Assembly (NCBI RefSeq): GCF_007004735.1 | Contig: NZ_SSNL01000006.1 | Location: 558,001 to 622,000 of the forward strand | Direction of reading: 5' to 3' | Origin: Salinigranum halophilum | Lineage (GTDB): Archaea; Halobacteriota; Halobacteria; Halobacteriales; Haloferacaceae | Length of the DNA: 64,000 nucleotides | Shown: in pieces, positions 15,860-46,429 of the stretch | How the letters are laid out: each line of letters begins with the position of its first letter | Position numbering within the stretch: the stretch's first letter is position 1 | Made by a program: the position numbers and the translations under genes | The notes under the pieces: generated by a model | What the model was told of the DNA's origin: nothing | Seen by the model: only the letters and a program-made list of their open reading frames with translations | Database searches by the model: none

Positions 15860-18800
15860 TCAGCTCCCCCCCGAGACGTCGTCGCGTCCGGTGTCGGCTC
15901 CGAGTGTGACCGTGACGTCGTGCGTGCCGCTGTGGACCAGGACGTCCGGTGAGACGCTCGGCGGCTCCTCGCCCTCCGTCGCCGTGGCCGTCGTTCCGTT
16001 CACGTCGTACTCGGCCGTGAGGCGCTCGACGTAGTCGACGCCGTCGACCCCTTCGAGGAGCGCGTACAGGTCCGAGAGCGTGGGCAACTCGCCGAAGGGC
16101 CATCCCGGTTCTTCGCGGTCGATGGGCCCACCCGAGAGCGGGTGGAGGAACGACGCGAGCGCGTCGGTCACCCGCTCTTCGAGCGTCGTGACGTTCTCGC
16201 TCCCGACGGCAGTCAGCGTCGTCTCGACGGACACCGCGACGTAGCTCGGCCCCCGAACCACGAGGCGGTCGGCGGCGACCAGCGTCGCGGGGGCCCGGTC
16301 GCTGACGGCCGCCTCGACCTGTTGTTTCAGTCCCGCCGAGGGAACCGGCTTCGCCCGTGGGGCGTTCGGGACGACGAGGAGTGTCACCCACCCGGGCTCG
16401 GGTTCTCCGTCGCGGTTCAGCTCCGGGAGACAGCTGACGCGTGCGAGCTTCCGGGCGGCGTCCAGCGCGACGCGCTCGAAGTCTGCCTCGGTGACCGCGC
16501 GTCCGCGGTCGCGGAGTTCGCGTGGTGCCCGCGTGAGCACCCTGTCGGTCGACTCCGCGTCGGCCCCACCGGTCCCCGGTGCCGGGTTGCTGACGCTGTC
16601 GACGAACGGGAGCGAACTCTTCAGCCCCGTGACTGTGCCGGGGTCGACGTTCCCGTCCGTCCCGCCGCCGGTCCGGTAGTCGGCCCGCACGTTGTTCTCC
16701 CCGCGTGGCGGGATACGCCCGGCCACGCCGTCGCCGAACGTGATCCGTCCCGTCACGCAGTCGACGGTGTAGTGTCGCTCGTCCTCGCCGGAGTCGAGGA
16801 AGTCCGACACGCGACGCCACGCCACCCAGAACGACTGGAGGCTCCCGTCCGGCGCGGTGACTTCCTCGGTCGCCGGCGTCTCGGCCCCGGCCAGCGACTG
16901 CCGACGACCTGCCGACAGTGTCGACGCCTCGTCGACCCAGACCGTCTCGTCGACGACGGGCGGCGACGTGACGACGAACGTCTGCGACTGCGAGCCGTCA
17001 CTCGACCCGAGCGTCTCGTCGTCGACGCTCCGAACGTTGTCCAGCCACGTGGTGTTGGGTGCGAGCGTCTCGACTGTCGGCGGCCGGGCTGTCGGGTCGC
17101 CCGTCGGGGGCTCGGTCGGGAGCGTCCGCTCACAGGGGCCGACGTCGGCCGGCGGCGCGGGCACGGCCGGTACTCGTGGAATCGTCGGCAGCCGGAAGCC
17201 GGCATCGTCGGGCACGAGCGGTACCCAGGGGTCGTCGAATTCCATGTCGAATCCGCCGGTGACGATGTCGACTGGGCGCGCGGCGGAAATATCGACGGTC
17301 TCGACGGTGTTGGCGGCGACGCCGAGGACGTGTCCGGTTGCGACGTCGGCCGTGTCGGTGGTGGAGACGTCGACAGTCGCTTCGGAACCGACGTCGGTGC
17401 CGAACCAGCGCGTTCGCGTTCGGCCGGCGGCGACGACGCGACGCCGGGCGTCGGTGACTCCCGAGCCGTCGGAGCGGAGAGACGCCACTCCGCGGACGGC
17501 GTCGCCGGTGGGGAAGCCGCGAGCGCCCGTCGGCGTGACGTCGTCCACGGAGCTCAGCCAGGACCGGGCGTCGCCGACTTCGAACTGCTCGGGCCCGACG
17601 ACCCCACTACCGGGGTCGATGAACGAGCCTGGGCGGGAGAACAGCCCCGGTTCGGGGAGAACCGGCAGGTCGAGCCCGTCGTCGATTCCGTCGAACCACC
17701 GTCCGAGGTCGACCTCACCCGTATCGGCCGACGCACCTCCCTCGGGGATGAACGGGGTGCCGGTCACCCGGGCCCGGATCCAGTGGCGTGCCGCCCCGAA
17801 CCGGGGACAGGCGTCGGTTTCGCCCGGGAACACCAGTCTGACGATACCCTGCTCGGTCAGGCCCCCGGTCCCATCCTGGATGTCGAGTCGGGCCCACTCG
17901 TCGGTCGCCGGGTCCGCACAGTACTCCCACCGCAGCCGCGAGTGGAAGAACTCGGGGTAAGCGCGGTCGGTGATGTCGAAAAAGAGCGTGAGCGGGCCGC
18001 CACGAAGCCGTGCGTCGAAGCCGAGGTACAGCGTCTGGTCGTCGTCGGGGAGTCGTTCGAACGGCGTGACGCGCGTCGCGTCGGCGTTCGCCAGGTTGTC
18101 GCCGAACGTGAGGGCGTTCTCGGCGAACAGGTGCGTCGCCGGTGCGCTCGGGAGGGCTAGCTCGCCGTCCCCACCGTTGTCGCCGCCCGCCCCGTTCTCT
18201 GCGCCGTTTCCCGCGTCGTCCGGGGCCACATATGCGATGGCGAACGAGTCGAACGCTGGCGGGTCCACATCGTGTTTCGTCTCCCAGCTGCTCCACGACC
18301 CCGACGTCGTCGCCGTCCGTTTCCCGTACGTCCCGCCGACCACCCGGACGCGAATCCAGTGGTGTTCGTGTCCGGCGACGGTCGTCTTCGAGAGGTCGTC
18401 GGGGACGGTCAACACGGCCCTGCCCCTGTCTTGCCCGTTCGCGCCGCCGGTGAGTTTGCCCGTGTTGTCGGTGAGCGACGGGAGCTTCGCCCAGCCGTTC
18501 CCGTCGTAGTACTCCCAGGAGAGCTCCGGTTTCGTATCCGTCGACGTGACCGCCCCATCGAGCCCGGTGAACGACAGTGCCACCCGCGTACCCGACTTGG
18601 TAAACGCCTCGTCGGAGGCGACGTAGAAGGTATCCTGCGCCTGCGGGGCGGTCCCGAGCGGGTAGTAGCGGTCCTGATCCGTCCCCTCCGCCGTCACGAT
18701 GGCGAACGGTAGCGGCACGTCGTTGTAGAGGAGTCGGTCGGGGGCGACCGTTCGTGTGGTGCTCCCGGAACCCGTGCCCCCGTCTCCGTCGTCGCCGGTT

Positions 18801-42650: not shown

Positions 42651-42968
42651 ATGCCCGACTCCCCACCCTCGCCCCCGCCGGGACTCTCTGACGACGTCGC
42701 CGACGCGCTCGCGGCCTGTTCGCCAGCGCTTCTCAGCGCCGTCGCGACGTACGCCGAGGAACTCGCTGCATACCGGGACGCCGCGGACGACACTACCGAG
42801 AACGGCGACCCCGACCGGGGGACCGACGACCGCCCGGACGACGTCCCCGCGAAGGCGACACTCACGGTCAAGAACATCAACGACAACCGCTACTACTACT
42901 GGCAGTGGCGCGAGGGCGAGACGGTGAAATCGAAGTACAAGGGTCCTGCGAACGGCGACAGACGGTAG
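42651..42968 (+). CDS. Small protein with a tyrosine-rich basic C-terminus (DUF6788-like)
   Basis: This 105-residue protein has a helical N-terminal half (LSDDVADALAACSPALLSAV, then ATYAEELAAYRD), an acidic linker and a C-terminal motif KNINDNRYYYWQWREGE followed by VKSKYKGP. The last part resembles the short DUF6788-like modules often found near partition and integrase genes on mobile elements, where they may bind nucleic acid. It converges on the ParA partner gene 22 bp away. Confidence 0.6.
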   Translation: MPDSPPSPPPGLSDDVADALAACSPALLSAVATYAEELAAYRDAADDTTENGDPDRGTDDRPDDVPAKATLTVKNINDNRYYYWQWREGETVKSKYKGPANGDRR

Positions 42969-42990: not shown

Positions 42991-43431
42991 TCACTCCTCG
43001 AAGGTCATACCGTACCCCCACGCTTCCAGCTGTGTCTCCACCTCGTCGAGATGGTCGAGTCCGACCATCACGAGCGCCTCACGGAGGTCCGTGAGGGAGA
43101 CGCTGTCGTCGAAGCGGTTCTCCAGGTCGTGGAGCGCGTCACGCTCGGCGGTCTTGGTCTCGCTGTGGAGGAAGAGCGGGACACGGTCACGGCCGTCTTG
43201 GACCCCGTCACGGCGGAACTTGTACGGGATGCGGAACCGCGTCTCTCGAGACTGTGCGGCCGCCGGTTCGGTCTCGTCGCCCGCCGACGCGTCGTCGGTC
43301 GCGGGGGTGGACTCTTGCTCGAGCTCGTGAGAATCGGCAGACGCCGCTCCCGTGTCCGCCGACCCACCCGTCAGCGGGGAGTCGTCCTCCGCGAAGGGGT
43401 CTTCGCCGGCTCCCTCTTTCATGCCCGTCAT
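42991..43431 (-). CDS. ParA-coupled partner protein (putative ParB-like/adaptor)
   Basis: This 146-residue protein starts at ATG 43431 (MTGMKEGAGEDPFAEDDSPL), overlapping the ParA stop (ATGA). The N-terminal half is acidic and disordered. The C-terminal half (ETRFRIPYKFRRDGVQDGRD, then LREALVMVGLDHLDEVETQL) is helical and could contact DNA or ParA. Small, non-canonical ParB-like partners directly behind parA are common on haloarchaeal replicons. The longer frame from 43599 runs through parA and is rejected. Confidence 0.65.
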   Translation of the reverse strand: MTGMKEGAGEDPFAEDDSPLTGGSADTGAASADSHELEQESTPATDDASAGDETEPAAAQSRETRFRIPYKFRRDGVQDGRDRVPLFLHSETKTAERDALHDLENRFDDSVSLTDLREALVMVGLDHLDEVETQLEAWGYGMTFEE

Positions 43432-44303
43432 GCGGAGATCACCTCGTGGTCGACGTCTCCGGGTTCCGGTGGGTTCGGCGCGTCGATACCGACCGCCCCT
43501 TCGAGTTGCCGCGCGATGCGGTCGAACTGCGCGAGGGTCTGGAGTTCGTAATCGCGACGCCGGCTCCGGTGGTCGCGGACGTACGTGAACGCCGAGCACT
43601 GCTGCATCCAGCAGCCTTCCATCAGCGACGCACGCTCGCCGATAATCTCCGGAATCGCGTACTCGATCTCGTCGATGATCGCCCGCTGGTCACGCGTGTC
43701 TTTGAAGCCGACGGGGACCGCGGCCAGGACGCCGACGTCGACGTCTAACTGCGCCTGGAGGCCCGCAACGAGCGATTCGAGCCCCTCGACGGCCGCGCGG
43801 CCTTTCGCGCTCGGTTCGAGCGGGATGACGAGCGACCGCGTCGCGTGAATCGCGTTGTACAGGTGTGGTCCCTCGGTGGCCGGTGGGTCGCAGATGAGGA
43901 CGTCGTACTGCTCGGGGACGTTCGCCTCCTGGAGGACGCGAAGCAACTGTGCGTGCATCCCGAACGCCTCGCCCATCGCCTCTGCCTGGTCTTTCTCGCG
44001 CTGGAGGTACTCGGCGAGGTCCGAGAGCATGTTGTGTTCGGGGACGATGTCGACACCCTCGACGGTGCGGATCAACTCGTCGAAATCGCCTTTCGGGCGT
44101 CGGATGAGGTGCCGAACGAGGTTGTCGACCGGTTCGGTTCGCTGGTCGTCGACACCGAACAACCGCGAGAGGTCACCGTCCTGGGGGTCCAGCGGGACCA
44201 CGAGTGGCTTCAAGCCGGCGCGTGCGTGTGCGACAGCGAGGTTCGCCGCCGTCGTGGTCTTGCCGACCCCGCCGGCCTCACTGTACGTCGAGTACGCGAG
44301 CAT
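43428..44303 (-). CDS. parA: ParA-family partition ATPase
   Basis: This 291-residue MinD/ParA-type ATPase has a deviant Walker A near residue 10 (SEAGGVGKTTTAANLAVAHA), the A' region VVPLDPQDGDLSRLFG and Walker B YDVLICDPPATEG. It moves plasmid or chromosome loci together with a DNA-binding partner and a centromere. The partner gene overlaps its stop, and an exact 13-bp iteron array lies 150 bp upstream, making a complete partition cassette likely. No N-terminal DNA-binding extension is present, so it is a type Ib-like small ParA. Confidence 0.92.
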   Translation of the reverse strand: MLAYSTYSEAGGVGKTTTAANLAVAHARAGLKPLVVPLDPQDGDLSRLFGVDDQRTEPVDNLVRHLIRRPKGDFDELIRTVEGVDIVPEHNMLSDLAEYLQREKDQAEAMGEAFGMHAQLLRVLQEANVPEQYDVLICDPPATEGPHLYNAIHATRSLVIPLEPSAKGRAAVEGLESLVAGLQAQLDVDVGVLAAVPVGFKDTRDQRAIIDEIEYAIPEIIGERASLMEGCWMQQCSAFTYVRDHRSRRRDYELQTLAQFDRIARQLEGAVGIDAPNPPEPGDVDHEVISA

Positions 44304-44455
44304 GTGTGGTCCATCGACGACCGGGGTTATGAACCTTCGTCAGACAACTCATGAGTGAACAAAGGACATGACAGCATCTACTGTGTTAGAGTTCAAACAT
44401 TACTTGTAACACACAACGAGTTTTCATAATTGATTGCCACACACCACATACTCAA

Positions 44456-44533
44456 TGAACACTAGTAGTGAACAATATTCATGAACACAACTAGTGAACA
44501 AGAATAGTGAATAATATCTCTGAACATACTTCT
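44456..44533. repeat. Iteron array: six direct repeats at an exact 13-bp period
   Basis: TGAACA starts at 44456, 44469, 44482, 44495 and 44521, with TGAATA at 44508, so six copies are spaced exactly 13 bp apart. Several units end in CTAG or ATAG. A degenerate seventh unit (CGAATAG) falls in phase at 44534. An isolated TGAACA at 44356 is out of phase. The array lies in an AT-rich region between parA and the integrase gene. It is a strong candidate for a centromere (parS), an autoregulatory operator or an iteron-type replication origin. Confidence 0.85.
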
Positions 44534-44696
44534 CGAATAGCTCTGCTGGGAACACGTACCGGCTGTACAACAGTGATGACCATCACACCACTCCACCAGA
44601 CTCGGTGACAGTGACTGGTACAGGTTCACGACGATTTAGAACACGAGCGATGAACTGACCCAGAGACGGTGGGTCGAGAGGAGTACCGGCGGTGGA

Positions 44697-46007
44697 CTAG
44701 TGGGAACGGTCAAGCCCTTCGAAGGCAGCCGCGAGTCGCTCGCGCATGTGTTCGCGGCGGAGGGCGCGGCGTCGTTCCGTGGTGAGATACTCCTGGAGGA
44801 CGACCGACGCGCTCGCGCTTCCCTGTTCGGCGGCGATCTCGCCGATGTCGGCCAGGATGGCCTCCTGTGTCGCCGAATACGAGTCGTACCAGAACCGCCG
44901 CCCCATCTGTGGGACAGGCTTCTGCCCGGCGATTTCGTCCGGAAGCGCGGCTCGGTCGGCCAGGTCGTCGAACCGGTTCAGGAGGGTCTGTCGGGTGCGG
45001 TGTCCAGTGGTCGAGCGCTCAGAAGGGAACAGGTAGCCGTTCCACTCCTCGCGCTCACCGAGTTCGCCGAGTCGCTCCGCGGCAGCCTCTCGGCCGTACA
45101 GGATGGAGACCTCGCCGGGCCCGTTCTTCCGCGTCTCGAAGGAGACGTACGGGACCGCCTCCGCCGGCGGGTCGAGGACGAGCTGAGACCGATGGAGGGC
45201 GGCCACTTCACCGGAACGCAGCCCCCAGGCACAGAGCGCGACGACCAGCAACCGCTCGGCAGGCGTCTCGGCGGCCTTATAGAGCGCGTTGACGTGGCTC
45301 GAGTCGAGCGCGGGGTTCGCCGGACTCGACTCCGACGTGTTCGCCCGGCGACTCCACCGGTACTCGTCGTCGAGTCCGGCGACGGGATTGACCGAGGCTC
45401 GCTGGCGGCGGACCAGATGGGCGTACCAGGCGTCGACGGCCTCGTGAATCCGGCGCATCGTCCGCGGCGCTAACTCCGCGTCGAGGGTATCGAACGCGCT
45501 CCAGGCGGCGTCTGTGGCCTCGTACGCAGGGACGTCGCTCTCACGGGCGACCGGGGTCAGCAGGTCGTCGGTGTCGTTGGCGGCACGGTACGCACGGACG
45601 TACTTCGCGAGGCGGTAGCGGAGGGTGTCTCCGGAAGACTCGCTGAGGTTTCCACGCTCGCGTCGGCTATCCAGATACCCTTCGAGGAGGGAAATCGTCT
45701 GCTCGTGATCGAGACCCCACGCGTAGCCGGTGTCTGTCTCTTCGAGGCCGAGGTCGTCCGCCCAGAACTCGCCGAACGTCCGGCCGTGGTACTCACGGAG
45801 GGCGTAGACGAGGCCACGAAACCCGTGTGCGGAGAGCCACTCGTGTGATGGCCGCTCGGTCTCGGGGTCGAGACCATCGGCGTGCATCGCCGGCGCGACC
45901 ACGTCCCAGTACGCGGCCGCGAGTTCGTCCAACTCGAGCATCGTCCACGCGACGTCTGCTCCCGGTCGTCGTCCGTCTTCGCGCGGCGAATCGGAGGGTG
46001 GGCTCAT
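44697..46007 (-). CDS. Tyrosine recombinase/integrase
   Basis: This 436-residue protein shows the tyrosine-recombinase catalytic pattern. Box I Arg is in LCAWGLRSGEVAALHRSQLV, the beta-hairpin Lys in SFETRKNGPGEV, box II Arg in QMGRRFWYDSYSATQ (no classical His-x-x-Arg) and the nucleophile Tyr in VVLQEYLTTERR. The N-terminal half is a SAM-like/core-binding domain. Such recombinases on haloarchaeal replicons integrate elements or resolve multimers. It is on the same strand as parA, across the iteron region. ATG 46007 is preferred over the in-frame GTG at 46013. Confidence 0.85.
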   Translation of the reverse strand: MSPPSDSPREDGRRPGADVAWTMLELDELAAAYWDVVAPAMHADGLDPETERPSHEWLSAHGFRGLVYALREYHGRTFGEFWADDLGLEETDTGYAWGLDHEQTISLLEGYLDSRRERGNLSESSGDTLRYRLAKYVRAYRAANDTDDLLTPVARESDVPAYEATDAAWSAFDTLDAELAPRTMRRIHEAVDAWYAHLVRRQRASVNPVAGLDDEYRWSRRANTSESSPANPALDSSHVNALYKAAETPAERLLVVALCAWGLRSGEVAALHRSQLVLDPPAEAVPYVSFETRKNGPGEVSILYGREAAAERLGELGEREEWNGYLFPSERSTTGHRTRQTLLNRFDDLADRAALPDEIAGQKPVPQMGRRFWYDSYSATQEAILADIGEIAAEQGSASASVVLQEYLTTERRRALRREHMRERLAAAFEGLDRSH

Positions 46008-46429
46008 CGGCACCCCCTCGTTCGAGGACCGCTGATCGACGGGAGAAGCCGCCAGGCTGCGTGTTCGGGTGATTCGAAGCCGTCCATATTCCAGTGAACG
46101 CGTGGTTCACACAGATATCTTATAGGTTTTGTGATTACACAGACTACGTGGGTCTGTCTACTCGACGGTTGCAGCCGACAGTATGCGTAATTCCGTAATA
46201 AACTAAATGCTGCTATATCATTATTCGTAGCTATAGTTGCACAGTTTCGGAGGATAGGCTGGTTTTGGGTCGAATGTTCGTTGACTCGTGGTGCGGTTCA
46301 CCAATCAAACGTCGATTGCGAACGCTCTCGGACGTAACTATTGGGTGAGCGTGAGAATTTTCGCTGATTCTGGCGCTAGCGAGCAGCGTCGCCACTCCAG
46401 AGAGGAGGACTCAGCGAGGGCACAGTCGG
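46008..46429. other. Intergenic region between integrase and transposase remnant
   Basis: The part 46108-46250 is strongly AT-rich (for example ttccgtaataaactaaatgc) and may contain the integrase promoter and the end of the mobile element. No gene is recognised, and clear terminal inverted repeats for the transposase remnant were not found here. Confidence 0.4.

Follow-up and report, generated by a model that had tools for sequence, protein, structure and literature searches.

A 13-bp-phased repeat array upstream of parA as a very probable partition centromere of large haloarchaeal replicons

The window, a 64,000-nucleotide stretch of the Salinigranum halophilum genome (4.2 Mb in 11 contigs) lying within a 645-kb contig (C5), carries on its minus strand parA (43428–44303), which encodes a 291-aa ATPase of the ParA/MinD type, and a gene for a 146-aa partner protein (42991–43431) that overlaps parA by 4 bp at the stop codon. 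Upstream of parA, 153 bp from its start codon, lies a centromere-like array of six 13-bp units of the form TGAAYA-N7 (44456–44533, plus strand), and the same arrays occur upstream of every parA of clade A, defined as those whose ParA is at least 76% identical to that of the window. Nearer to parA, 36 bp upstream of its start, a GTCAGAC element (44339–44345, plus strand) adjoins a TATA-like TTCATAA (44327–44333, minus strand). GTCAGAC is found at exactly this distance in 51 of 97 loci and is probably a promoter rather than a centromere element, since it is common to clades with different iterons; it also adjoins a second, distal array on the contig (C5:60755). On the far side of the array, a minus-strand gene (44697–46013) ending about 160 bp from it encodes a putative tyrosine recombinase with a weak XerC/XerA match (E=0.013, below the cut-off). 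The original prediction had placed the array between parA and an integrase; the position was correct, whereas the identity of the integrase extends no further than this weak similarity. A 105-aa protein with a YYYWQWREG motif is encoded at 42651–42968, and relatives of it are found near parA in three other loci (L047, L049 and L102).

The six units start at 44456, 44469, 44482, 44495, 44508 and 44521, giving a pitch of exactly 13 bp when read as hexamers, five of which are TGAACA and one TGAATA. A degenerate seventh unit, CGAATA, follows in phase (44534–44546, plus strand), and the G+C content of 44456–44540 is 32% as compared with 64% for the window. The predicted hexamers and their phase, the degenerate seventh copy and the AT-rich setting were all borne out when the positions were re-read. 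The earlier listing, correct for the six units, had overlooked two further sites. The first is an inverted half-site, TATTCA, in phase on the minus strand (44476–44481), which together with the unit at 44469 forms the 13-bp inverted repeat TGAACA-A-TATTCA; opposite-strand sites elsewhere in clade A likewise lie at fixed phases modulo 13. The second is a lone TGAACA (44356–44361, plus strand) situated 100 bp before the array, at 9 modulo 13; no other second register is common in clade A. None of 15 dinucleotide shuffles of the whole window produced six related 6-mers in a chain of fixed period, or even five at any period from 8 to 40, and when the 400-bp region was shuffled 2000 times the longest chain had four members. 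The real window contains one other six-member chain, a GC-rich series of CGACTG-like 6-mers with a 24-bp period at 17269.

A genome-wide scan yielded 79 parA loci; 80 loci were read in all, one of them too short upstream. Periodicity at 13/26 bp upstream of parA exceeded that of dinucleotide shuffles in all 79 readable regions, the window included, and in 77 at no more than 1 in 300; an array upstream of parA, the repeated site near the operon that characterizes type Ib loci, is present in 79 of 79. A motif-free reading gave the same picture, every large ParA clade showing a strong excess of recurring 5-mers at 13, 26 and 39 bp over other lags. In clade A, where the word is TGAACA/TGAATA, units commonly stand at distances of 76, 89, 102, 115 and 128 bp from the start of parA, and among 300 same-strand TGAAYA pairs no more than 60 bp apart, 279 are spaced at 0 modulo 13 and 20 others at 9 or 4 modulo 13. 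Other clades keep the pitch with words of their own, namely CTAAGA-type, TTTGTA-type, (A)GTTAGAC, GTATAGC, AGTnnnACT and some rarer ones. Across the 84 labelled rows of the ParA tree, 8 words require 7 changes, the minimum possible, a count that is approximate because the seed words were picked by inspecting these same upstream regions and left 12 of them unlabelled; the words were then assigned from DNA alone. These seeded counts took the place of a de novo EM motif search, which overfitted. In several words a short core shows two-fold symmetry (GTTnnnAAC, AGTnnnACT and TCTnAGA, as read off the motif matrices), which is consistent with binding of one partner dimer per unit. The window genome itself has a second par module, on contig C8 (G000:C8:73637–74946, L189), with the word AGTnnnACT. 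The family is widespread and apparently undescribed, each lineage having its own word, always every 13 bp. In the open-access literature, no description of these haloarchaeal arrays was found (subscription journals being poorly covered and preprints outside the scope).

The proximity of the recombinase gene raises the question of whether the units are att or accessory sites of that enzyme, as homologues are placed alike in L040, L041, L106 and L109. However, a homologue adjoins the array in these four loci and the window only (5 of 80), the periodic array occurs without an adjoining recombinase in the other 75, and L106 and L109 have a recombinase yet a different word, one which tracks ParA, so that the probability of this explanation is extremely low. 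The recombinase is incidental to the array and perhaps serves as an optional accessory for dimer resolution. The term iteron in the original prediction evoked replication-origin repeats to which a Rep protein or Orc1 binds, which direct repeats in AT-rich replicon DNA do resemble, and AT-rich intergenic DNA is also where haloarchaeal origins are found. This sense of the term found no support: there is no adjacent Rep or Orc gene, the nearest Orc1/Cdc6 genes being about 150–220 kb away on the contig, and the word co-varies with ParA and the partner. Clustering of conserved neighbours across the loci recovered parA, the partner and several small clusters, without a universal third gene and without a replication gene (the small clusters being unannotated). 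An origin function is accordingly very unlikely.

The window ParA matches AAA_31 (E=6e-19) from residue 8 and begins at its Walker A motif; it thus lacks an N-terminal HTH, as do ParA proteins of subtype Ib. In two other respects it departs from that subtype. Its Walker A motif reads SEAGGVGKT, and SEAGGVGK[T/S] in all 80 loci, with the signature lysine of KGGxGK[T/S] replaced by alanine in every case; and its 291 aa exceed the 200–250 aa of subtype Ib proteins (PMC9178275). Because the signature lysine is missing, the ATPase cycle may be unusual, and variation of the motif among relatives is illustrated by McdA, which has SGGQGKT (PMC9178275).

The partner gene is co-directional with parA and overlaps it by 4 bp in nearly all loci, giving the small same-operon partner of a type Ib locus; in L190 (G249 C9), about 1.6 kb separates the two genes and the array is nonetheless kept. 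Partner proteins are about 130–180 aa long in most loci. They comprise an N-terminal peptide, conserved as MTGMKxGAGEDPF in the clade of the window, a variable linker rich in acidic residues and serine, and a C-terminal domain of some 75 aa that is conserved. AlphaFold predicts this domain with confidence (pLDDT 84) as helical, three helices of 18, 14 and 10 residues coming after an extended segment, and the remainder as disordered. Scans of Pfam and NCBIfam matched the partner to no family, including no known DNA-binding family, and, with a domain of about 75 aa, it does not have the ParB CTPase and HTH domains of classical ParABS systems. A PDB sequence search with the partner profile returned chance matches only, with no SegB up to E=1; Foldseek returned non-significant matches only, the best being plant TCP domains (E 3.2–3.7); and no partner homologue was found in phage records. 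A ribbon-helix-helix (RHH) fold would be a plausible guess, but it is not claimed here because HHalign comparison with haloarchaeal RHH_1 proteins was negative. The extended segment varies with word class, reading RVPLFL where the word is TGAACA, VQLHL where it is CTAAGA and LTFFV where it is TTTGTA, and is therefore a natural candidate for the DNA-reading element. The partner is likely to be the centromere-binding protein.

The array was further investigated as a replicon marker by scanning 394 Halobacteria genomes for three exact TGAAYA units, with the reversed pattern as a control. Fifty genomes were positive, against none with the control, and in 47 of the 50 an array lies beside clade-A par genes, including one genome (G096) whose par genes look frame-shifted. 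In G132, an array (C3:17031) occurs without par genes nearby. The original prediction had proposed that the same array be sought in other replicons, and a TGAAYA array is also present on each of Halobacterium salinarum pNRC200, Haloferax mediterranei pHME132 and PL100; in PLSDB, the parA-partner family was found on 85 plasmids, these three among them, all haloarchaeal among the matches listed. Clade-A modules also occur on contig C1 (about 2–3 Mb) of G272, G258 and G114, which suggests that they have integrated into the main chromosome or are used by it. These distributions bear on the idea that TGAACA is a generic haloarchaeal motif, a set of transcription-factor sites unrelated to partition and near parA by chance. 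The word is short and single copies of it are present elsewhere in the window, but a genome-wide scan of the window genome found TGAAYA triplets at 13-bp spacing on the par contig only, and this, with the association with par genes and the empty control, renders the idea extremely unlikely.

Far from parA but still on the contig of the par genes are 13 additional arrays, where contig sizes would predict about 1.3; another four were found on different contigs in draft assemblies. At C5:60755, the distal array in the contig of the window is located between convergent genes, which from their sequence encode an ABC transporter and a protein resembling the small subunit of 3-isopropylmalate dehydratase; because these genes converge, the array is unlikely to act as an operator there. 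Distal arrays frequently close with an inverted unit at 10 bp distance (L178, L180, L183, L179, L184 and L007:6754-6800; e.g. TGTTCACTGATGAACA), as if a turn-round unit capped the array. The possibility that the array does nothing more than let the parA-partner operon regulate itself, as an operator bound by the partner and not as a centromere, draws on its position directly upstream of parA in all loci, adjoining the conserved promoter element, and centromere-binding proteins often repress their own operon. Against this, units reach at least 300 bp past the promoter in several loci, and the distal arrays include the one between convergent genes, which has no promoter. Co-residence adds a further argument: the 56 intact clade-A modules occur in 56 different genomes, one in each, and the 50 further family members of these genomes include none of clade-A strength, where about 6 would be expected (P about 0.001, from hand-transcribed match counts). 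One clade-A module per genome is as predicted if equal words are incompatible, as in partition-based incompatibility, whereas pure autoregulation predicts it less simply. An exclusively operator function is thus unlikely.

In its overall layout, the locus resembles type Ib partition loci such as TP228 parFGH and pSM19035 delta/omega/parS, which share a ParA without an N-terminal HTH, a short-repeat array upstream of the operon and a small downstream partner with a disordered N-terminal tail. It differs from them in the longer ParA without the signature lysine, in being archaeal, in its clade-specific words and in a partner without detectable homology to known centromere-binding proteins. The 13-bp pitch also contrasts with the contiguous 7-bp heptads of pSM19035, a system that needs four contiguous 7-bp repeats (PMC9499535), whereas several of the distal arrays described here have only three units. 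The SegAB system for chromosome segregation in Sulfolobales likewise pairs an archaeal ParA-like ATPase with a small site-specific partner encoded by an overlapping gene, and the motif read by SegB is also 13 bp long, occurring twice upstream of segAB and again at other chromosomal positions (PMC12284271). SegB sites are, however, scattered single imperfect palindromes rather than phased arrays, neither SegB nor another RHH structure was matched by the haloarchaeal partner in sequence or fold searches, and the modules described here lie mostly on plasmids and other extra replicons. The AspA-ParB-ParA system of the Sulfolobus plasmid pNOB8 is another case of archaeal plasmid partition with a ParA ATPase, but it has three genes, in contrast to the haloarchaeal loci, in which no third gene is universally conserved. 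The ParMRC systems of Clostridium perfringens offer a parallel of a different kind, with lineage-specific pairs of centromere and binding protein that would let related replicons coexist; there, ParR specificity for the centromeres defines plasmid incompatibility (PMC9426499), although the motor is of the actin type and not a ParA-type ATPase.

Together, the findings strongly favour the reading of the array as the parS-like, cis-acting centromere through which a ParA module partitions a large haloarchaeal replicon, in view of its sequence, its conservation, the clade-specific word at constant pitch, the confinement to cognate contigs and the lack of a nearby Orc1 gene. Weighing against it are the absence of any recognisable DNA-binding family or significant fold match for the partner, the missing signature lysine of ParA, the G132 array with no par genes close by, the four arrays on different contigs of drafts and the distal arrays of only three units. 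The original prediction of a plasmid centromere on which ParA and the partner encoded at 42991–43431 act is supported by the presence of a conserved site upstream of parA throughout the clade, by the switching of the word with the ParA/partner clade at 13-bp pitch and by the distal arrays on the par contig. By analogy with small-ParA systems, such a centromere would entail partner binding with a defined stoichiometry, stimulation of ParA and a partition phenotype. Partner dimers would bind the 13-bp units through their C-terminal domain, one dimer per unit, and a step of 13 bp would set neighbouring dimers about 86 degrees apart around the DNA. The dimers may form a cooperative, possibly helical, complex on the array, and a spiral arrangement at this pitch is possible. 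The N-terminal peptide of the partner, carried on its flexible linker, would contact DNA-bound ParA-ATP and trigger ATP hydrolysis, which would move or position the replicon. By binding beside the parA promoter, the partner may also act as a repressor of the operon, and the short extra arrays on the same replicon are probably satellite sites.

What constitutes a centromere on archaeal plasmids and chromosomes is among the outstanding questions listed in a review of archaeal genome segregation (PMC5120986). The present array provides a concrete candidate centromere for large haloarchaeal replicons, including pNRC200 and pHME132, for both of which the array and its unnamed partner are in hand. 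It would allow incompatibility groups to be predicted from a short DNA word, and may offer a route to stable haloarchaeal vectors. A broader proposition, for which we consider the case evenly balanced, is that haloarchaeal ParA modules constitute one partition family with a novel centromere-binding fold, a fixed 13-bp lattice, a freely evolving word defining incompatibility groups and dispersed satellite centromeres on megaplasmids. At least six clade-specific pairs of word and partner are available for studying how specificity evolves at constant spacing, and if there is indeed one family with a fixed 13-bp lattice and an evolving word, these modules would amount to a natural collection of protein-DNA pairs with matched specificity.
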